A DNA stretch of 64,000 nt from Glycomyces arizonensis DSM 44726 (GTDB lineage Bacteria > Actinomycetota > Actinomycetes > Mycobacteriales > Micromonosporaceae), in assembly GCF_000482705.1 (NCBI RefSeq), contig NZ_AXWO01000008.1, positions 62,001 to 126,000 on the forward strand, in the 5' to 3' direction. The notes under the pieces are model-generated. The model was not told the DNA's origin, searched no databases, and saw nothing but the letters and a program-made list of their open reading frames with translations. The stretch's first letter is position 1. Each line of letters starts with the position of its first letter. This document shows positions 53,691 through 63,760 of this stretch, piece by piece. Position numbers and translations under genes: made by a program.

Positions 53691-55871
53691 ATGACCGGCG
53701 TCGTCTACTGCACGCTGCCCGGCTGTCCCGGCGAGGGCAGGGGCGTCGTGGACGAGGACGGCCTCTGCGACGAATGCGGACGCGACCCCCTCGAACCGGG
53801 CGAGGAGCCCGTGCCGCCACCGCCGGTGCCGGGCCCGCGAGTCCCGACCGGACGGACGACGCCCACCGACGTCCACACGCCCGGCCGCCTCGGCACCGGG
53901 CTCGCCGACGTCCCCAGCGCGCCGGTCAGCGACCCGACCTCGAACCTCCTCAGCGACCCCGTGGTCCCCGAGAGCCGCAGGCGGTGCCCCAACAGCCACG
54001 AGGTCGGGCGGGCCAGGGACGGCCGCCCCGCCCCGCTCAAGGGCCAGTGCCCCGAGTGCGAGGCCGACTACGACTTCACGCGCACGCTCGCCCGCGGCGA
54101 GGTCGTCGCCGACCAGTACGAGGTCGAGGGCCTCATCGCGCACGGCGGGCTCGGCGGCGTCTACCTCGCCACCGACCACCACCTGGAGAACCGGGTCGTC
54201 CTCAAGGGACTCCTCGACCCCGCCGACGCCGCGGCGCTGCGCGCCGCCCGCGACGAGCGCCACTACCTCGTCGCCGTGAACCACCCCAACATCGTCGACA
54301 TCCACAACTACGTCAAGCACCGCGACGAGAGCGACGGCGCCGAGCACGACTACCTGGTCATGGAGTACGTCGGCGGCGTCGCCCTGGACGACCCGCGCCA
54401 CCCCGGCTGGACCGCTGGCGGCACGATGCCCGCCCACTGGGCGATCCCCTTCGCGCTGGAGATCCTGTCCGCCTTCGACTACCTGCACTCGAACGGCATG
54501 GTCTACTGCGACCTCAAGCCGTCCAACATCATCCAGTCGGGCAACCGGCTCAAGCTCATCGACCTCGGCGCCATGCGGCACATCGGCCGGACCGGCGGCG
54601 ACATCTGGAGGACGCCCGGCTACAGCGCGCCGGAGATCGCCCGGAACCACCCGCCCGACGTCGCCTCGGACCTGTACACCGTCGGGCGGACCCTGGCCGT
54701 GCTCACCCTCGGCTTCCGGCCCGCCGACGCGAGCGGCGGGACGATCCGCGAGGTCCCGATACCACCGCGCCCGGCGGGCTTCAACGAATCGCTGCACCTC
54801 CTGCTCCAGCGGGCCTGCGATCCCGACCCCGAGGCGCGGTTCGCCTCCGCCGCCGCGATGGCCGACCAGCTGACCGGGGTGCTCCGGGAGATCCGCGCCG
54901 AGGTCGACGGCCAGCCCTACCCGGCCATGTCCACCCACTTCGGACTCGAGCGCGGCGCGATCGGCAGCAAGCCGGCCGACTCGACGATGACCGTCTTCAA
55001 CGGTGCCAAGGCCGAGGAGGCCCGCCAGGAGCTGCCCGTGCCGCAGGTGGCCGACCAGGCCGACCTCGCCGGGCCCGCGCTCACCGCGCTGGCGCTGCAA
55101 CCGGCCGCGCGGACGCGGGAGCGCATCGAGGCGCTCCCGGCCACCCCGGAGGCACGGCTGGCCCGGATCCGTCTCGCCGCCGAGCTGGGCAGCCGCGACG
55201 CCCCGGCGCAGATCGCACAGGCCAGCGCGGACTTCGGCGACGACTGGCGGCTCGACTGGTACCGCGGCGTGGCCGCACTCGGCGAGGCGTCGGCGGCCGA
55301 CCACTTCGAGGCGGTGCGGCGCCGCCTGCCCGGCGAGATGGCGCCGATGCTGGCGCTGGCCGTCTGCCACGAGTCGCACCGGGCCGTGCAGCGGGCCGCC
55401 GAACTGTACCGCACCGTCTGGCGCACCGACCGCAACCACACCAGCGCCGCGTTCGGCCTGGCCCGCACGTCGGACTCGGCCGAGGAGCGCCTGGCCGCCC
55501 TGGCGGACGTGCCGCACTCGTCGAGCCACTACCTCGACGCACAGCAGGCCATCATCGCCGAGCACCTGCGCGAGCGACGGAGCCTGGAGGCGGTCCTCGC
55601 GGCGGGCGCCCACCTGGACAACCTGGCGGGGCTCGACGCCGCCCGGGCCGCCCTCGTCGAGGCCGAGGTGTGGGGCGCGGCGCTCGAGGCGGTCGAGGCC
55701 GGATCCGAGGAGCCGCGGCGGAGCATCAGGGGCGTGGCGCTGACCCGCAACGAGATCGGACAGGCCTACGAGACGGTGCTGCGCCGCGTCTCGGCCGGTT
55801 GCGCCTCGCCGCTGACGCGCTGGGCGATCATCGGCGCGGCGAACCGGGCCCGACCGAGAACGTGGTTGTGA
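53691..55871 (+). CDS. pknG: PknG-like serine/threonine protein kinase with zinc ribbons and TPRs
   Basis: 726 residues. An N-terminal C7/C12/C26/C29 cluster and a second ribbon C99-x3-H103...C120-x2-C123 replace the rubredoxin of mycobacterial PknG. Kinase domain about 140-400: Gly loop HGGLGGVY, Lys172 in VVLKGLL, catalytic Asp274 in YCDLKPSN, and DLG (291-293) instead of DFG, all as in PknG, whose loop is likewise non-RD. The C-terminal half is TPR-like. No transmembrane segment. PknG adjusts 2-oxoglutarate/glutamate metabolism by phosphorylating the FHA protein GarA. The neighbouring GlnX/GlnH-like genes support this assignment. The next gene starts 19 bp later. Confidence 0.85.
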   Translation: MTGVVYCTLPGCPGEGRGVVDEDGLCDECGRDPLEPGEEPVPPPPVPGPRVPTGRTTPTDVHTPGRLGTGLADVPSAPVSDPTSNLLSDPVVPESRRRCPNSHEVGRARDGRPAPLKGQCPECEADYDFTRTLARGEVVADQYEVEGLIAHGGLGGVYLATDHHLENRVVLKGLLDPADAAALRAARDERHYLVAVNHPNIVDIHNYVKHRDESDGAEHDYLVMEYVGGVALDDPRHPGWTAGGTMPAHWAIPFALEILSAFDYLHSNGMVYCDLKPSNIIQSGNRLKLIDLGAMRHIGRTGGDIWRTPGYSAPEIARNHPPDVASDLYTVGRTLAVLTLGFRPADASGGTIREVPIPPRPAGFNESLHLLLQRACDPDPEARFASAAAMADQLTGVLREIRAEVDGQPYPAMSTHFGLERGAIGSKPADSTMTVFNGAKAEEARQELPVPQVADQADLAGPALTALALQPAARTRERIEALPATPEARLARIRLAAELGSRDAPAQIAQASADFGDDWRLDWYRGVAALGEASAADHFEAVRRRLPGEMAPMLALAVCHESHRAVQRAAELYRTVWRTDRNHTSAAFGLARTSDSAEERLAALADVPHSSSHYLDAQQAIIAEHLRERRSLEAVLAAGAHLDNLAGLDAARAALVEAEVWGAALEAVEAGSEEPRRSIRGVALTRNEIGQAYETVLRRVSAGCASPLTRWAIIGAANRARPRTWL

Positions 55872-55890
55872 CCCCATGGAGGAGGACTCT

Positions 55891-57183
55891 TTGACCGATC
55901 AGACCGGATTCGCGATCAGCGTGGCGCAGAACCCCTATCTGCCGCCGGACGAGACGACGATGTACGCGGTCGCCACCGTCGAGTTCGCGCCCGCGGAGGA
56001 GACCCGGGCCGACGTCGCCGAGATCATCGTCATCGACCGGTCGGGCTCGATGGCCGGCCCGAAGTTCGAGGAGGCGAAGCGGGCGGCGAAGGCCGCGCTC
56101 GGCGCGGTCCGAGCAGACGCGTCCTTCGCGCTCATCGCGGGGGGCACCCGCGCCACCGAGCTCTACCCGGGGGGCGGGCGGCTCGCGGGCGGGAGCGAGG
56201 AGCACAAGGAGGCCGCCGCTCGCGCGATCGACGCGATGAAGCTCGGCAGCGCGACCTCCATCGGCGCGTGGCTGCGGCGCGCGGCCGACATCGCCGCGAC
56301 GCGGCCCGCGGCCATCGGGCACGTGCTGCTGCTGACCGACGGGCAGGTCAACCAGCTCCCGTCCGTCTACGACACGGACCTGGACTACTGCAAGGGCAAG
56401 TTCGCCTGCGACGCCATCGGCATCGGCACCGGGTGGAACGCCGAGGAGCTGGGGCGGATCGCCCGGCTGTTCCACGGCACCCGCGAATACTGCCGGGACC
56501 TGCCCGACCTGGCGGACTTCTTCACCGCGGCCTCGGAGCGGGCCATGGGCAAGGCTGTCGACGGAATCGAGTTGGTCGTTAAGGGCCCCAAGGGGTTCGA
56601 GCTGAAAGGGCTGTGGCAGGCGTACCCGGTCGAGCGCGACCTGCTCCCCGGCGGCCGGGAGTCCGCGGGGCGCAGGACCGCCTTCGACCTGGGCGCGTGG
56701 GGGGCCGAGCGGCGGCAGTACCTCATGGAGCTGGCCTTCCCGGCCACCGGTACGGGATACCGCCGCGACGTCAGGCTGGAGCTGGTCCGCCGCGGCGAGG
56801 CCGTCGCGGGGGGCCTGGTGTCGGCGCAGTGGACCGACAACCCGGCCGAGAGCGAGGCGTTCCATCCGGACGTGGTCCACCACCGGACCCAGCTGGCGGG
56901 CATCGAGCACATCCGGCGGGGACTGCGGTACTGGCACGAGCGGAACCCGGCCGCCGCCACGCATCAGCTGCTGACGGCCCTGGAGCACGCCGAGCAGGTG
57001 GGGAACCGGGACCAGGCCGAGAGCATCAGGGAGTTCCTCGACTTCGACGGCCGCGGCAACGCCACCATACGGACCGACGCCTCCGGAGGGCGGGCGCTGT
57101 GGCTCGCGACGCGGGGCGACTACACCGTCCACACGCCGTCCTCGCGCGAAGCAGGCGACGACGAAGAAGGAGGCGGGTCATGA
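55891..57183 (+). CDS. von Willebrand factor A domain protein
   Basis: I prefer the TTG at 55891, five to six bases after GGAGGAGG, over the ATG at 55876 that forms part of that ribosome-binding site. The 430-residue cytoplasmic protein has a vWA domain with a complete MIDAS start DRSGSM (Asp49, Ser51, Ser53), LLTDGQ and a Thr in SATSIG; the C-terminal half is a beta-rich domain followed by helices (GLRYWHERNPAAATHQLL). vWA proteins bind partners through a metal. It lies between the kinase and FHA genes; the stop overlaps the FHA start (ATGA). No mycobacterial counterpart is known to me in the PknG operon. Confidence 0.8.
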   Translation: MTDQTGFAISVAQNPYLPPDETTMYAVATVEFAPAEETRADVAEIIVIDRSGSMAGPKFEEAKRAAKAALGAVRADASFALIAGGTRATELYPGGGRLAGGSEEHKEAAARAIDAMKLGSATSIGAWLRRAADIAATRPAAIGHVLLLTDGQVNQLPSVYDTDLDYCKGKFACDAIGIGTGWNAEELGRIARLFHGTREYCRDLPDLADFFTAASERAMGKAVDGIELVVKGPKGFELKGLWQAYPVERDLLPGGRESAGRRTAFDLGAWGAERRQYLMELAFPATGTGYRRDVRLELVRRGEAVAGGLVSAQWTDNPAESEAFHPDVVHHRTQLAGIEHIRRGLRYWHERNPAAATHQLLTALEHAEQVGNRDQAESIREFLDFDGRGNATIRTDASGGRALWLATRGDYTVHTPSSREAGDDEEGGGS

Positions 57184-57719
57184 GCTACCCGTGCCCGAAG
57201 GGACACGACTCGCCCAATCCGGTCCAGTGCCCCCGCTGCGGGACGATGCTGGTCCCGCTGCCGGACTTCGGGACCCGCCGCGGTACCGATCCGATGCCGT
57301 TCGAGGCGGTGATCGACGCCGACCGGGACTTCTACGACCGGCTCGGGAACGCCGTCGGCGGCGACGACCCGATTCCCTTCCCGCCGCACGCGCCGCGGCG
57401 GGTGGTGCCGCTGGAGCGCCAGGTGGTCTACATCGGGCGCAGCGATCCGGGCGAGGCGGGCCCGCGCCCGCCCATCGACCTCGGCGAGGTCCCGGCCGCC
57501 GACCTGGGCGTGTCGCGGCGCGTCCACGCGATCCTCAAGCGCTACGGCGACGACTGGACGGTGCACGACACCGGCTCGGCCAACGGCACCCGCGTCGACG
57601 GCCAGAAGCTCGAGCGCAACATCGAGACGCCGCTGCGCCCCGACTCGGTGATCCACATCGGGCTCTGGACCGCGATCCGGGTGCGGGAGCGGTCGACGGG
57701 CGGGGAGGCCGGGCTATGA
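57180..57719 (+). CDS. Zinc-ribbon/FHA domain protein
   Basis: The 179-residue protein starts with the zinc ribbon CPKGH...CPRCG (Cys5-x3-His9, Cys17-x2-Cys20), a linker, and an FHA domain with YIGRSD, VSRRVHAIL and NGTRVDG for phosphothreonine binding. The N-terminal ribbon has the same C-x3-H/C-x2-C form as the second ribbon of the kinase. By analogy with GarA, it is probably the kinase substrate or reader; the phosphorylatable N-terminal Thr motif ETTVTS of GarA is not seen. Stop-start overlaps on both sides place it in the operon. Confidence 0.85.
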   Translation: MSYPCPKGHDSPNPVQCPRCGTMLVPLPDFGTRRGTDPMPFEAVIDADRDFYDRLGNAVGGDDPIPFPPHAPRRVVPLERQVVYIGRSDPGEAGPRPPIDLGEVPAADLGVSRRVHAILKRYGDDWTVHDTGSANGTRVDGQKLERNIETPLRPDSVIHIGLWTAIRVRERSTGGEAGL

Positions 57720-59107
57720 CGCTGCTGCGCAACCGGATCGACGCACGGCTGCCGGAGGGCGACCTCGTCGTCCTGGGGCGGCTCGGCGTCTTCCGCGCGG
57801 GCGGCGGGCCGCAGGCGCTGATCGCGCAGGCCACGGCGGTGGTCGCGGCCCTGGCGGTCATGTTCGGGACGCTCTACTACGCCGTCAGCGCCTCGGAGGA
57901 CTCCCTGGAGGTCATCGGCCACAGCTCGGGGCCGCAGGTCGTGGCCACCACCGACCTGTACTACGCGCTCAGCGACGCCGACTCGCAGGTCGCCACGGTT
58001 CTGCTGCTCGGCGGTTCGGGCACGGAGCTCGCCGACGCGGCGCTGAGCCGCTACGAGCAGCGGCGGGGCGACGTCGCCGCGGCGCTGCTGGAGGCGCACC
58101 GACTGGCGGGCTCGGACGGGGCGCAGCGCCGCACGATCGAGTCCATCATGTCCAGATGGGGCGAGTACCAGCAGCTCGCGGCCGTCGCGCTGCTGCTCGC
58201 CGAGCGCACCGAGTACACGGCCGGGGACCCGCCGCCTGACGTGCTGGGCGCCTACCAGGAGGCCACCGCGCTCATGAGCGGGCGGGTCCTGCCCCAGGCG
58301 TACAACCTCACGCTGGAGAACGCGACGATCGTCCGCGAGTCCTACGACACCGCGTCCGGTCGCATCGAGTTCGGCCTGGCCGCGGTGGCCGTGACCGGGC
58401 TCGCCGCGCTGGCCTTCCTGGTCCTCCTCCAGGTCTACCTCGCCCGCGTCTTCCGGCGCGTCTTCAACCCCTCGCTGGTGGTGGCCACGGCGGTGGCCGT
58501 GCTGTACCTGTTCACCGGGCTCGCGGTGCTCGACACCGAGCGCGACGCGCTCACCGATGCCAAAGTGGACGGATTCGACACGGCGCTGTCGCTGGAACGC
58601 GGTAAGGCCATCTCCGACAGCCTCCACGCCGACCGTGTGCGGTTCCTGCTCGATGAGGGCGACGCCGACGTGTACGAGCAGACCTACTTCGACAAGGCGC
58701 AGCAGCTCGTCTACGTCGAGGCGGTGAGCCTGCCGCGGTACCAGGAGGCGCTGGCCGAGACCGACATCGGCGACGCGCCGTCGGGCCTGATCGGTGACGC
58801 GCTCGACGGCAGCGCCGAGGCCGAGCGGGTCTTCACGGCCTACACGGACCTCATCCTCGCCGACGCCGAGATGCGCGAGGGCCAGGGCGACCCGTCGGCG
58901 CGGCTCGCGCCGGTCGACGTCGCCCGCGCCGAATACGAGGAGGCGCTCGACGCCCTCTCGGACCGGCACCTCGACCGCTTCCGGTCGGCGATCGCCGCGG
59001 GCGAGGACGCCGTCGCCGGATTCGCCTTCCTCCTGATCGCCGCGATGGTCTCGCTCGGCGTGTTCACCTTCAGCGGCATCGCGCCGCGACTGCGGGAGTA
59101 CCGATGA
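57716..59107 (+). CDS. glnX: GlnX-like four-helix membrane sensor
   Basis: The 463-residue protein has helices at about 36-56, 219-241, 253-273 and 436-455, and two helical extracytoplasmic domains (57-215 and 275-430). The second contains RVFNPSLVVA before helix three and a C-terminal short cytoplasmic tail. This is the layout of mycobacterial GlnX, which passes the amino-acid signal of lipoprotein GlnH to PknG inside the cell. Sequence identity cannot be assessed here, but gene order with kinase, FHA and GlnH-like genes makes the call likely. ATGA overlaps at both ends. Confidence 0.75.
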   Translation: MTLLRNRIDARLPEGDLVVLGRLGVFRAGGGPQALIAQATAVVAALAVMFGTLYYAVSASEDSLEVIGHSSGPQVVATTDLYYALSDADSQVATVLLLGGSGTELADAALSRYEQRRGDVAAALLEAHRLAGSDGAQRRTIESIMSRWGEYQQLAAVALLLAERTEYTAGDPPPDVLGAYQEATALMSGRVLPQAYNLTLENATIVRESYDTASGRIEFGLAAVAVTGLAALAFLVLLQVYLARVFRRVFNPSLVVATAVAVLYLFTGLAVLDTERDALTDAKVDGFDTALSLERGKAISDSLHADRVRFLLDEGDADVYEQTYFDKAQQLVYVEAVSLPRYQEALAETDIGDAPSGLIGDALDGSAEAERVFTAYTDLILADAEMREGQGDPSARLAPVDVARAEYEEALDALSDRHLDRFRSAIAAGEDAVAGFAFLLIAAMVSLGVFTFSGIAPRLREYR

Positions 59108-59943
59108 GCAGACACATGATCCGACGCGCGCTGACCGTGCTGTGCGCGCTGTCGCTGCTGCCGCTCGCGGCCTGCGGCGGCGACGAGGAGGAATCCATCC
59201 TCGACAAGGACTCCCTGCGCATCGGCGTGCGGTACGGCCTGAACCTCATCAGCGAGGAGGTCGACGGCGAGTTCGTCGGCTACGAGATCGACGTCGCGAA
59301 CTTCATCGCGGACCAGCTCGGCAAGGACGTGGAGTTCGAACCGATCGACCTCGACGAGCGCGCGCCGGAGCTGCTGTCGGGCGATATCGACCTGGCGATC
59401 GCGACCTACTCGATCACGCAGGAGCGCAAGCAGCGCGTGGCCTTCGCCGGGCCGTACGTGATCGACCACTTCGACATCCTGGTGCGGGAGGACAACGACG
59501 AGATCGCCTCGCTCGCCGACCTCGAAGGGAAGACGGTCTGCGAGGTGGAGGGCTCGAACGCGGTCGACCGCATCACCGACGAGCACGGCATCGACGCGAA
59601 CATCCGCGGCGTCGAGAACTATGACGAGTGCATGCGCCTGCTGGGCACCGGCGGGATCGACGCGATCGCCACCGACGAGCTCGGGCTCGCCGGGCTGGCG
59701 ATCGATGCCGACTTCGAGGCCAAGCTCGTCGGGGCGGACTTCTCCCAGGAGCGCATCGGCGTCGGCATGCGGCCCGGCGACACCGCCGGGTGCGAGGCGA
59801 TCAACCGGGCCATCACCGCGATGTACCAGGGCGGCGGCGACGGCGCCCCCAGCACCGCCGAGCTGTACCTCGAGAAGTGGTTCGGGAACACCGTGCTGGA
59901 CCTCTCGCAGTTCCCCATACCCCAATTCGAAGGATGCGCATGA
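59104..59943 (+). CDS. glnH: GlnH-like amino-acid-binding lipoprotein
   Basis: The 279-residue protein has a lipoprotein signal with LPLAACGG (Cys24) and a type II solute-binding fold: SLRIGVRYGLNLISEE, GYEIDVANFIADQLG, DLAIATYSITQERKQRVAFAGPY, LADLEGKTVCEVEGSNAVDR. The R in ITQERKQRV is the usual carboxylate-binding Arg of amino-acid binders. No ABC permease or ATPase follows, so it is a sensor rather than a transport component; this matches GlnH in the PknG pathway. The ligand is probably glutamate or aspartate. Confidence 0.8.
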   Translation: MSRHMIRRALTVLCALSLLPLAACGGDEEESILDKDSLRIGVRYGLNLISEEVDGEFVGYEIDVANFIADQLGKDVEFEPIDLDERAPELLSGDIDLAIATYSITQERKQRVAFAGPYVIDHFDILVREDNDEIASLADLEGKTVCEVEGSNAVDRITDEHGIDANIRGVENYDECMRLLGTGGIDAIATDELGLAGLAIDADFEAKLVGADFSQERIGVGMRPGDTAGCEAINRAITAMYQGGGDGAPSTAELYLEKWFGNTVLDLSQFPIPQFEGCA

Positions 59944-61211
59944 CCGCCACCCCCGCCCCGGTCAGGCCCAGGACGCAGCGCGAGATCATCGGCGCCTGCG
60001 CGGTCGGCACCGCCCTGGAGTGGTACGACTTCTTCCTCTACGGCACCGCCGCCGTCCTGGTGTTCCGGCCGCTGTTCTTCCCCGACTCCGACCCCGCCAC
60101 CGGCACGCTGCTGGCCTTCGCCACCTACGGGGTCGGCTTCATCGCCCGCCCCATCGGCAGCGTCGTCTTCGGGTACCTCGGCGACCGGGTGGGGCGCCGC
60201 AACGTCCTGGCCGTCACGCTCCTGGTCATGGGCATGTCGACGTTCCTCATCGGCATCCTGCCCACGCACGCCTCCATCGGCACCGCCGCACCGGTGCTGC
60301 TGGTGGTCCTGCGGTTCGTGCAGGGGCTGAGCCTCGGCGGCGAGTGGGGCGGCGCGGTGCTGCTGTCCATGGAGCACTCCTCGCGGCGGCGGTGGGGCCT
60401 GGCGGCGTCGTGGGTCCAGTTCGGCGTCCCGGCCGGGAACATCGCCGCCGTCGGCATGCTCGCGTTCGCCGGTCTCGTCCTCTCGGACACCGCGTTCGCG
60501 ACCTGGGGGTGGCGGCTGCCGTTCCTGGTCTCGGCCGCGCTCGCCCTGGTGGGGCTGTGGGTGCGCCGCAACATCGCCGAGTCGCCGATGTTCACGCGCC
60601 AGACCGACATCCCGGCCAACCCGCTCTCGGCGGTCTTCCGGAGCCACCGGCGGGCGCTGACCGCCTCGTTCTGCGTCCGCATCGGCGTCGACGTGGCCTT
60701 CTACATCTTCACGCTCTACCTGCTGACCCACCTGACCGAGGAGGTCGGGGTGGCCGAGAGCGTCGGCCTGGTGGCGGTGGTGGTCGGCTCGGCGGTGCAG
60801 CTGGTGCTCATCCCCTGGTTCGGGCGGCTGTCGGACGTGTACGGGCGCAAGGGCATCGCCGTGGCGGGAGCCGTCGCCGCGGCGGTGTGGGCGTGGGTGT
60901 TCTTCCCGCTGCTGGACACCGGGAGCACGGCGGCGATCATCGCCGCGGTCACGGTGGCGCTCGTCGCGCACGCGGCCATGTACGGCCCGCAGGCGGCGTT
61001 CATCGCCGAGCTGTTCCCGACCAAGGTCCGCTACTCGGGCACCTCGCTGGGCTACCAGCTCGCGGGCGTGCCCGGCGGCGCGCTCGCCCCGATCGCCGCG
61101 ATCGTCCTGTTCGACCTGTTCGACTCGGCGGCGGCGGTCTCGCTGTACACGACGGCGGCGCTTGCCGTCACCGTGATCGGCCTGGCGATCGCGCCGAAGC
61201 CCGCCCGCTGA
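59940..61211 (+). CDS. MFS transporter, metabolite:H+ symporter (MHS) family
   Basis: The 423-residue 12-helix protein has the MHS blocks GTALEWYDFFLYGTAAVLVF, YLGDRVGRRNVLAV (motif A) and FVQGLSLGGEWGGAVLLSMEH. MHS members such as ProP, ShiA and KgtP take up organic acids, betaine or 2-oxoglutarate with protons. The ATG overlaps the GlnH-like stop, so it belongs to the kinase operon. A dicarboxylate or compatible-solute substrate under control of the sensor is a reasonable guess. An unlinked read-through tail is unlikely because the next gene is on the other strand. Confidence 0.85.
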   Translation: MTATPAPVRPRTQREIIGACAVGTALEWYDFFLYGTAAVLVFRPLFFPDSDPATGTLLAFATYGVGFIARPIGSVVFGYLGDRVGRRNVLAVTLLVMGMSTFLIGILPTHASIGTAAPVLLVVLRFVQGLSLGGEWGGAVLLSMEHSSRRRWGLAASWVQFGVPAGNIAAVGMLAFAGLVLSDTAFATWGWRLPFLVSAALALVGLWVRRNIAESPMFTRQTDIPANPLSAVFRSHRRALTASFCVRIGVDVAFYIFTLYLLTHLTEEVGVAESVGLVAVVVGSAVQLVLIPWFGRLSDVYGRKGIAVAGAVAAAVWAWVFFPLLDTGSTAAIIAAVTVALVAHAAMYGPQAAFIAELFPTKVRYSGTSLGYQLAGVPGGALAPIAAIVLFDLFDSAAAVSLYTTAALAVTVIGLAIAPKPAR

Positions 61212-61217
61212 GGGGCG

Positions 61218-62267
61218 TCAGCCGCGGTTCCTGCGGACGGTGACGAACCTGGGCAGGGAGGCGAACCGGCCGTCGCGGATCTCGGCGACGGGGACGCCCT
61301 CGACGGCCGCGGCCATCACCGAGTGGGCGCCGCGTGCGCCGGCCATGATCTTGTCGAGGGCGATCTCCTGGCGGCCGACCTCGGGCATCCACGGCAGGGG
61401 CGCCAGGTCGAGGACGTGCGGGCCGTCGCCGGGCTCGGTCATCCACTCCTGGAGCCGCCTGCGCTGGCCGCGGTAGCGGTCGAGCGAGGCGAGGTGGCCG
61501 CGGCCGAGGCCGGGCCGGAGGCGGTCCATGTAGGAGGCGGAGAGCCGCCTGCCCGCCGACGGGCGGCTCGGCGGCGGCCGGAGCGGCTTGGTGCTCAGCG
61601 AGAGCACGTGGGTGCAGCCGTCGCGCAGCGCCAGGACGTAGGGGTGGGCGGTGAGGACGCCGCCGTCGACGGCCCGCTCGCCGCGGAAGGTCCCGGTGCC
61701 GGGGACCGCGACGGGCAGCCAGCAGCTGGCCCGCAGGCCCTCCTTGAGGTCCTCCTTGGACGTGAAGTCCCCGGCGCTGACCGTCTCCAGCTCGTCGACG
61801 AGCGTGATCGCGACCTGGAACGAGGCCGGGGCCTTGAGCACGCGCTCGTAGTCGAGGGGCTTGACGGTCTCCAGGACCTCCTCGAAGACGTAGTCGAGGT
61901 CGAGCACGGGCCTGCGGGCGAAGAAGCGGCGCGTGTCGACGAAGCGCTTGGTGGCGAGGTCGTCGAAGTAGATGGTCAGCGGGTACCAGGTCTCGCCCGC
62001 GGTGAAGTAGGCGGCGTTGACCGCTCCCGACGAGCAGCTGTAGATCGCGTCGAACGCCGGCCGGAGGCCGAGGTCGTCGAGCGCGGTGAGCATCGCGGCC
62101 GAGACCACGCCGCGCATGCCGCCGCCTTCGACGGCGAGGCCCAGGCGCTGGCCGTCGCCGTGCTCGCCGGGGCCGGTTCCGGCGTCCCGGCGGGCGCGGA
62201 GGAGTTCGAGGACCGGGTGGTCGTCGGCCCAGTACCGGTCGGCCGCGGGATCGTAGGCGTCGGGCAT
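61218..62267 (-). CDS. Patatin-like phospholipase
   Basis: The 349-residue protein has the oxyanion loop LAVEGGGMRGVV (about 44-55), a nucleophile elbow YSCSSGAVNAAYF with Ser79, and dyad Asp201 in AVDGGVLTAHPY. The first Gly of the usual GxSxG is Ser, which still permits the elbow. Patatins hydrolyse acyl esters of membrane lipids. No signal peptide. ATG 62267 has GAGGAGG six bases upstream. Convergent with the MHS gene. Confidence 0.8.
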   Translation of the reverse strand: MPDAYDPAADRYWADDHPVLELLRARRDAGTGPGEHGDGQRLGLAVEGGGMRGVVSAAMLTALDDLGLRPAFDAIYSCSSGAVNAAYFTAGETWYPLTIYFDDLATKRFVDTRRFFARRPVLDLDYVFEEVLETVKPLDYERVLKAPASFQVAITLVDELETVSAGDFTSKEDLKEGLRASCWLPVAVPGTGTFRGERAVDGGVLTAHPYVLALRDGCTHVLSLSTKPLRPPPSRPSAGRRLSASYMDRLRPGLGRGHLASLDRYRGQRRRLQEWMTEPGDGPHVLDLAPLPWMPEVGRQEIALDKIMAGARGAHSVMAAAVEGVPVAEIRDGRFASLPRFVTVRRNRG

Positions 62268-62440
62268 GAGGCCTCCTCTCATGAGAGGTGAAGCGGCGGA
62301 CACGGGTCGGGGAAATGCTACCCGCGGTGCGGCGCCGTGCACGGCCCGCGGCGCGACGGGCGGGCCGGTGCGCGGGCGAATGCCCGGGCCGCCGAGCGCG
62401 GGAGGGCGGAATGTCAGTTACCCGACAGTAGGATACTGGG

Positions 62441-62471: not shown

Positions 62472-63731
62472 TCAGTACTCGACGGGATCGCGGGCGATCG
62501 GGCAGGTCATGCAGTGCCCGCCGCCGCGCCCGCGGCCCAGTTCGGCGCCGACGATGGTGACGACCTCGATTCCGGCCTGCCGCAGCAGCGCGTTCGTCTG
62601 GGTGTTGCGGTCGTAGGTCACCACGACGCCCGGTTCGATCGCGACGGCGTTGTTGCCCGAGTCCCACTGCTGGCGCTCCGAGGCGTAGCAGTCGCCGCCG
62701 GTCTCGATGATCCGCAGGCGGCGCAGCCCGAGCGCGGCCGCCACGACGTCGGTGAAGCGCTCGCCGCCGTGGTCGGTGAGGTGGAGGCCGGTGGGGGTGT
62801 CGGCCGGGCGCAGCGTGAACGCGTGGACGTCCGCCATGATCTTGGGGTAGAGCGTCACCGTGTCGCGGTCGGCGAAGGTGAAGACCGTGTCGAGGTGCAT
62901 CGCCGCGCGGAGCCTGGGCATCCCGGCGACGATCACGCGATCGGCGGCACCCTGCTCGAACAGCGCCCGCGCCACCTGGGTGATCGCCTGCCGGGAGGTG
63001 CGCTCGCTCATGCCCATGAGCACGACGCCGCCGCCGACCGGCATGATGTCGCCGCCCTCGAAGGTGGCCTGGCCCCAGTCCCGCTCGGGATCGCCCCACC
63101 ACACGGTGTCGCCCGCGAAGTCCGGGTGGAACCGGTAGACCGCCTTCATCAGCAGCGTCTCGTCGTGCCGTGCGGGCCAGTACAGGGGGTTGAGCGTGAC
63201 GCCGCCGTAGAGCCAGCAGGTGGTGTCTCGCGTGTAGAGCGTGTTCGGCAGCGGCGGCATGAGGTACTCGCGGGTGCCGGTCGACTCGCGCACCAGCGCG
63301 ATGTAGCCCGGGCGCAGGTCTTCGGGCAGGTCGGCGGCGGCGAGGCCGCCGATGAGGTACTCGGCGAGGCGGCGCGGCGGCAGCGACTCCAGATAGGCGC
63401 GGGTGGCGTCGACCAGGCCGAGGCCGACCTGGTTCGGGACGATCTTGCGGTCGAGCAGCCAGTCGCGGGCCTCGGGGATCGCCACCGTCCGCTCCAGCAC
63501 GTCGTGGAGCTCGATGACCTCGACGCCGCGCCCCCTGAGCTGCTCGACGAAGTCGGCGTGGTCCCTCTGGGCGTTCTCGACCCACATGACGTCGTCGAAC
63601 AGCAGGCTGTCGGCGTTGGTCGGGGTGAGGCGCCGGTGGGCCAGGCCGGGGGCGCACACCAGGACCTTGCGGAGCCTGCCGACCTCGGAATGGACCCCGT
63701 GGGCCACGGGCGGCTTCGTGTCGGTGGTCAT
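62472..63731 (-). CDS. arcA: Arginine deiminase
   Basis: The 419-residue enzyme shows the ADI family signatures: [64 protein letters not shown] and the catalytic-Cys segment [10 protein letters not shown] (Cys407). It converts arginine to citrulline and ammonia, the first step of the arginine deiminase pathway for ATP and acid tolerance. ATG 63731 follows GAGGAG at seven bases. It lies 29 bp after the antiporter gene on the same strand; arcB and arcC are not in view. Confidence 0.9.
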
Positions 63732-63760
63732 CGGTGCGCTCCTCATTTCGGTGGGACGGT

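Follow-up and report, generated by a model that had tools for sequence, protein, structure and literature searches.

A three-gene PknG-GlnX-GlnH operon is widely conserved (PMC6069109), and its mycobacterial and corynebacterial forms link a Ser/Thr kinase with rubredoxin-like and tetratricopeptide repeat (TPR) domains to GlnX and GlnH, with GarA or OdhI as the known output in trans (PMC6069109, PMC9769921). A phospho-switch built from different parts has been described in archaea: ArnC, which joins a TPR-like stretch to a Hanks-type kinase, phosphorylates the C-terminal bundle of the von Willebrand factor A (vWA) protein ArnB, the forkhead-associated (FHA) domain of ArnA, a zinc ribbon-FHA protein, then binds, and PP2A reverses the ArnB phosphorylation, the state of which is nutrient-dependent (PMC12852372, PMC6509490, PMC7472852). 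Here we analyze a locus of the soil bacterium Glycomyces arizonensis DSM 44726 that shares components with both systems and lies in a stretch of 64,000 nucleotides, hereafter the window (C7:62001-126000 of a 5.05-Mb genome in 49 contigs). Six intact, co-directional genes make up a real form of the PknG-GlnX-GlnH system with extra genes inside. We favor, tentatively and with a confidence just short of even, a reading in which they represent a second, probably acquired PknG module that would signal from a lipoprotein through GlnX and PknG to a phospho-switch resembling ArnA/ArnB, with a putative importer as an extra member of the unit:

53691-55871, + strand: PknG-type Ser/Thr kinase with an N-terminal zinc ribbon, rubredoxin-like domain, non-RD kinase domain and TPR domain
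55876-57183, + strand: vWA protein with an intact metal ion-dependent adhesion site (MIDAS) and a predicted three-part ArnB/Sec23-24-core fold; likely true start TTG 55891
57180-57719, + strand: zinc-ribbon (CPKGH...CPRC) and FHA protein, phosphothreonine-binding residues retained
57716-59107, + strand: GlnX-type membrane transducer with four hydrophobic segments, NF058618 match below its cut-off
59104-59943, + strand: GlnH-like family-3 solute-binding lipoprotein (SBP_bac_3), putative sensor
59940-61211, + strand: MHS-type MFS symporter (MFS_1; TIGR00883 match below its cut-off), putative importer

Relative to the three-gene form, the locus thus holds vWA, ribbon-FHA and MHS genes inside the operon, follows another gene order, carries a C3H instead of a four-cysteine rubredoxin-like site, and is accompanied by a second module in the same genome. 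The initial annotation had described six same-strand genes of PknG-GlnX-GlnH type, each start from the vWA gene on overlapping the previous stop by 4 nt, and a lipoprotein devoid of ATP-binding cassette partners; coordinates and all four overlaps are as described, the lipoprotein's neighbors are the GlnX and MHS genes, and domain matches bear out the assigned gene content. Pfam matches above cut-off were obtained for the kinase (PF16919, 59.2 bits; Pkinase, 109.7; PF16918, 168.2), the vWA protein (VWA_3, 49.4), the ribbon-FHA protein (FHA, 42.8), the lipoprotein (SBP_bac_3, 89.5) and the MHS protein (MFS_1, 93.5). No Pfam family matched the GlnX-type protein, for which the NCBIfam GlnX model NF058618 gives a nearly full-length match of 208.4 bits, short of its cut-off of 250. 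The best model for the transporter, TIGR00883, likewise covers nearly the full length (394.5 bits versus a cut-off of 443.45), a likeness to the MHS symporters represented by the ProP, shikimate and TcuC models. Expected motifs are in place in the kinase (YCDLKPSN, DLG), the vWA protein (MIDAS DRSGS/T/D) and the FHA domain (GR/S...H/NG). The rubredoxin-like site reads CPNSH...CPEC (C-x3-H ... C-x2-C), a C3H variant that marks this clade and is also present in three other loci (L040, L041 and L098), and its lack of four cysteines does not exclude membership in PknG operons, as the domain itself is absent from the PknG of Corynebacteriaceae (PMC6069109). The vWA protein more likely starts at 55891, because the N-terminus of its G. 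tenuis counterpart aligns to this TTG and GGAGGAGG lies directly upstream; an alternative in-frame ATG for the MHS gene is found at 59934. Identical order in other Glycomyces indicates that the arrangement is not chance, and the linkage suggests that the genes are co-transcribed. The GC content of the operon genes (0.675-0.746, versus 0.722 for the whole window) reveals no clear foreign signature in base composition.

To place the operon among its relatives, we looked for PknG_TPR in 178 genomes of the class and found matches in 50, in 49 of them above cut-off. Of 66 places, three under the Pfam cut-off were left out, 63 loci were read, and 62 were scored, one (L284) having no called PknG. A same-strand run was taken to end where the contig ended, the strand changed or a gap reached 250 nt, and the vWA count given below is therefore a lower bound; the composition script used for gene calling recovered all six window genes, the MHS gene from its upstream ATG, and gene starts elsewhere are approximate. 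GlnX and GlnH each accompany the kinase in 42 of the 62 runs, vWA in 36, PP2C phosphatase in 35, FHA in 32, a protein we term X400 in 28, and MHS in one, that of the window. The vWA gene is found in 36 of 48 runs outside family f2, apparently the Mycobacteriaceae judging from PknG and GarA scores, versus none of 14 within it, where PP2C and FHA are equally missing (0/14 each); runs with vWA mostly hold PP2C as well. A reciprocal sample of 52 vWA loci from the window's own family (48 of 54 strong places outside the own genome plus four weak ones; three carry no vWA label) has PknG in 44 runs, as do 72 of the best 80 of 519 named vWA loci. Two orders prevail: glnX-glnH-X400-pknG-PP2C-vWA-FHA, in 24 of the 52 family loci and 20 of the best 80 of 519 named ones, and X400-pknG-PP2C-vWA-FHA-glnX-glnH, in 30 of the latter (Streptosporangiaceae, Actinomadura). 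The window corresponds to the second order minus X400, which is retained in G. terrestris (L094) and G. sambucus (L095), minus PP2C and plus MHS. The initial annotation had regarded both the vWA and the transporter genes as additions to the pathway and had named a neighborhood survey as a test: the vWA gene, like that for ribbon-FHA, proves common in PknG operons outside f2, and we rejected vWA as a lineage-specific addition, while the transporter stands as the unusual extra, absent from 61 of 62 PknG runs and present in seven of eight operon-bearing Glycomyces and one distant genome. An open-access literature search, outside of which many subscription papers lie, found no description of a vWA/FHA-extended PknG operon, and plasmid records gave one match for the vWA protein, in an 11.85-Mb Nonomuraea record. 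The X400 protein (e.g., L044:4555-5742, L099:5150-6397) is about 400 residues long and all-helical, without a Pfam or NCBIfam match; its model (pLDDT 90.8) had no PDB match at E 0.001.

A close parallel to the vWA/FHA pair is archaeal. Modeled with AlphaFold2 (pLDDT 92.4, pTM 0.88), the vWA protein best matches PDB entry 4fx5 of Catenulispora over its length (query-side TM-score, TMq, 0.91), followed by archaeal ArnAB (8s05; TMq 0.65, target-side TMt 0.73) and an ArnB paralogue; the inter-alpha-inhibitor heavy chain and others match as well, with Sec23/24 lower. A profile of 25 vWA orthologues matches 4fx5 (E 1.2e-165), a mussel thread protein (E 1.6e-16) and, within the vWA domain, the 8s05 chain of ArnAB (E 2.4e-12). 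As modeled, the vWA protein shares the three-part fold of ArnB. The resemblance between ArnB and 4fx5 is already published (PMC6509490, PMC12852372), and our literature search found no link of this 4fx5/ArnB-like family to PknG operons. The likeness extends to the ribbon-FHA partner, the TPR-bearing Hanks kinase and the nutrient context, whereas the window unit is linked to a putative surface solute-binding sensor and has a C3H ribbon. The residues expected at the FHA phosphothreonine site are nearly invariant (R87 in 156, S112 in 158 and N135 in 157 of 158 rows), and the C, H, C and C ribbon ligands are kept in 144, 144, 151 and 151 rows, respectively. Furthermore, vWA and FHA are naturally fused into a single 638-residue protein in G. 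artemisiae (L098:9989-11905), which is indirect support for a putative physical vWA/FHA complex. On the vWA side, Thr417 (numbered from 55876) is T in 153 and S in five of 162 rows and ranks as the third most conserved of the 31 columns past residue 390. It is a candidate phosphosite only and may have a structural role instead, given its position in the modeled segment and ten further vWA columns that exceed 80% Thr. The alignments of the vWA, FHA and GlnH-pocket sequences drop at most identical rows, and close relatives are therefore counted more than once. A phosphorylated vWA protein, SRIM_014225, has been reported from Streptomyces rimosus (PMC9600765), with no established tie to a PknG operon.

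Kinase, phosphatase and FHA proteins also act in one pathway in the PpkA/PppA/Fha threonine phosphorylation of type VI secretion systems; unlike these, the window operon has no secretion genes and encodes its vWA protein separately. A further parallel is the gene linkage of kinase, PP2C and vWA, known as the TerY-P triad. In actinobacteria, an active kinase, frequently one with a zinc ribbon, has been described in linkage with PP2C and a standalone vWA protein (PMC7159879); as in operons related to ours, the three genes stand together, whereas the window operon lacks PP2C and has FHA, GlnX and GlnH. These linkages, together with the NACHT-domain genes directly following vWA in two PknG-vWA loci (L083:7407-9245, L090:6954-8660), leave some room for a TerY-P-like or conflict-related complex-assembly system in which nutrient sensing is secondary. 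We consider this quite improbable, given that GlnX and GlnH each recur in 42 of 62 kinase runs and that in other modules a family-1 solute-binding protein stands in, a pattern indicative of solute sensing.

We also weighed whether the operon gathers a GarA-like pathway into one unit, with the kinase phosphorylating the FHA protein and thereby directly controlling MHS uptake, as the initial annotation had proposed. Gene linkage with 4-nt overlaps, the retention of MHS in seven of eight Glycomyces operons, and its position after vWA and GlnX-like genes in the distant genome G321 speak for this view. The FHA protein, however, scores 22.8 bits on the OdhI/GarA model (cut-off 200) and has no ETTS motif, and we rejected it as a GarA orthologue; a separate GarA-type protein is encoded elsewhere in the genome (C32:45841-46215, L315; 199.2 bits on the OdhI model versus the cut-off of 200); and MHS is missing from nearly all PknG runs. 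We consider such a unit quite improbable. At the phosphorylation site, the genome's own GarA-type protein reads DVTATMNL, versus ETTSVFR in 12 of 12 f2 rows (28 of the 30 loci cut for this comparison were readable). GarA-type proteins are widespread, with OdhI-model matches of E 1e-20 or better in 169 of 178 genomes, 17 above the curated cut-off, versus 50 genomes for PknG_TPR. GarA control is not only mycobacterial, as the Saccharopolyspora erythraea protein is phosphorylated at ETTS (PMC12321487).

The window operon is an additional module, since contig C1 of the same genome carries another PknG copy in a glnX-glnH-pknG-PP2C-FHA module (L003:6435-13489). In the FHA protein of that module, a long Q/D/P/Y/G-rich repeat separates the ribbon from the FHA domain. 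A search of the genome with the window's vWA protein returned a single match, itself. In a 47-row GlnX tree, the eight Glycomyces modules adjoin G230 (family f19) and Planobispora (SH-aLRT 95 and 96), and this group is nested in the Streptosporangiaceae/Actinomadura set (97); the copy on C1 groups with the window's own family (96). A 36-row PknG tree recovers the same neighbors, G230 and Planobispora (SH-aLRT 95 and 96), and a single clade with the Streptosporangiaceae/Actinomadura set is not rejected (p 0.795); GlnH also groups with that set (100). With the C1 PknG placed in its own family and the window's kinase and sensor among Streptosporangiaceae-type sequences, the simplest reading is that the module was probably acquired horizontally from a Streptosporangiaceae-like donor, although duplication and loss may offer an alternative origin.

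Mapped onto M. tuberculosis GlnH, whose aspartate contacts are R147, K161 (via water), T162, S164, R169, W232 and D250 (PMC6069109), the window lipoprotein keeps R147, T162, S164, R169 and D250 and replaces K161 by A and W232 by Y. The resulting pattern R,A,T,S,R,Y,D is the commonest among lipoproteins of the X400-pknG-PP2C-vWA-FHA-glnX-glnH order group (33 of 56 rows); that of f2 is R,K,T,T,R,W,D in 10 of 12 rows. An acidic amino acid or a similar compound is a plausible ligand. Four further PknG modules have family-1 solute-binding lipoproteins: L277 (L277:7694-14159; 76.4 bits against a cut-off of 26), L062 (L062:1-7132; 33.7), L281 (L281:5281-11162; 29.0) and L280 (L280:8165-12962; 19.8, under the Pfam cut-off). 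The adjacent membrane protein matches GlnX in L277 and L062 and gives no such match in L281, and vWA is also present in all three. The front end of PknG modules hence seems exchangeable. A more sweeping reading, which we hold more loosely than the one favored above and regard as possible but somewhat doubtful, would make the textbook PknG system a stripped-down mycobacterial form, with an operon-encoded ArnA/ArnB-like switch reset by PP2C and fitted with an exchangeable front end of family-3 or family-1 lipoproteins and GlnX-like transducers elsewhere, and with the Glycomyces unit transferred and given its own importer; it is weakened by the ETTS phosphorylation of S. erythraea GarA (PMC12321487).

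The transporter is the unusual part of the operon. Window-type GlnX occurs in eight of 22 Glycomyces genomes and an MHS orthologue (at least 72% identity) in seven, each time beside that GlnX; in the remaining 15 genomes, the best MHS match among those listed reaches 49%. Outside the genus, G321 (L329:215-4499) encodes a vWA protein, a ribbon-GlnX-like fusion and an MHS protein of 60% identity, separated by 5 and 14 nt, with no kinase or lipoprotein gene in the 4.5 kb read. The other MHS relatives of 60-62% identity from genomes with a known PknG-type GlnX lie on a different contig from that GlnX. It could be argued that the MHS gene landed at the operon end and is merely co-expressed, without a tie to ligand or switch: it is missing from the other 61 PknG runs and from the metagenome-assembled genome L092, and MHS proteins are no rarity, with 97 of 394 genomes encoding one that matches at E 1e-100 or better. 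Retention in seven of eight operon-bearing Glycomyces, an orthologue never apart from the operon in the 22 genomes, and the further case, in G321, of MHS beside a vWA/GlnX-like pair argue against such a chance landing, which we deem unlikely but the most serious of the rivals discussed. As for the substrate, MHS relatives of 58-59% identity adjoin pxpABC in G523 and divergent pxpBC in G006. PxpA adjoins an MHS relative in one of the 14 genomes checked, other neighborhoods being mostly unread, and a PxpA gene is present in all 22 Glycomyces. In C. glutamicum, the same gene position of the 5-oxoproline operon is taken by PxpT, a transporter of NRAMP/APC rather than MHS type (PMC13274462). We tested 5-oxoproline as a candidate substrate on these grounds, and it is a weak lead.

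Taken from homology and gene linkage, the favored ArnA/ArnB-like module would operate as follows. The lipoprotein would sense a small amino acid outside the cell, probably an acidic one, or a chemically related compound, and GlnX would be the transmembrane relay to the kinase's TPR part. The kinase would phosphorylate the C-terminal region of the vWA protein, on whose phosphothreonine the ribbon-FHA protein would dock in the manner of ArnA on ArnB, so that the output would be an altered vWA/FHA complex. The MHS symporter, presumably co-transcribed, would import the ligand itself or a related compound, and a phosphatase acting in trans, for example the PP2C encoded in the C1 module, would return the switch to its starting state.

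A number of observations weigh against this model. At the level of the switch, the FHA-protein ribbon is C3H versus C4 in ArnA; Thr417 belongs to the final segment modeled with confidence (residues 411-420, pLDDT 91) rather than to the disordered terminus; and, as mentioned above, Thr exceeds 80% in ten further vWA columns. The vWA/FHA pair is not obligatory, since the C1 module has FHA without vWA and three loci (L143, L164 and L211) have vWA without a called FHA gene, and no PP2C gene is found in the window operon. On the sensory side, the GlnX protein remains under its curated cut-off and the lipoprotein pocket varies within Glycomyces, with S or A in place of T162 in five of eight and W232 varying as well. 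With regard to origin, the vWA and FHA trees are compatible with transfer but unrooted and less clear, and alone show no nesting, while a quick 58-row PknG tree, whose careful search is unfinished, places Glycomyces beside f2 and Pseudonocardia (92), in disagreement with GlnX and with the 36-row PknG tree. Finally, the eighth operon-bearing genome, L092, has no MHS gene at E 1e-40; its GlnH gene is followed by genes sized like the patatin and arginine deiminase genes downstream of the window operon, a comparison by size alone.

If the model holds, it would supply the much-studied kinase PknG with likely native partners in many PknG-bearing actinomycetes and tie it to a mechanism structurally worked out in archaea. 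The targets of PknG outside mycobacteria would become a testable question in harmless antibiotic producers, and the suggested swappable sensor would mean that a single kinase architecture may serve for different kinds of solute.

Further genes adjoin these operons. Four Glycomyces operons have a co-directional gene for a BTAD-TPR (AfsR/SARP-like) regulator upstream, either directly before pknG with a 4-nt overlap (L041:5079-7508, L098:5498-7858) or before X400 (L094:3431-5884, L095:3312-6014). These regulators are a possible transcriptional output; the window has none. In G. harbinensis, a further Ser/Thr kinase gene follows 81 nt after the MHS gene (L041:15133-16644). In the window, the 3' side of the operon is occupied on the opposite strand by genes for a patatin-like phospholipase (61218-62342, - strand) and an arginine deiminase (62472-63746, - strand).

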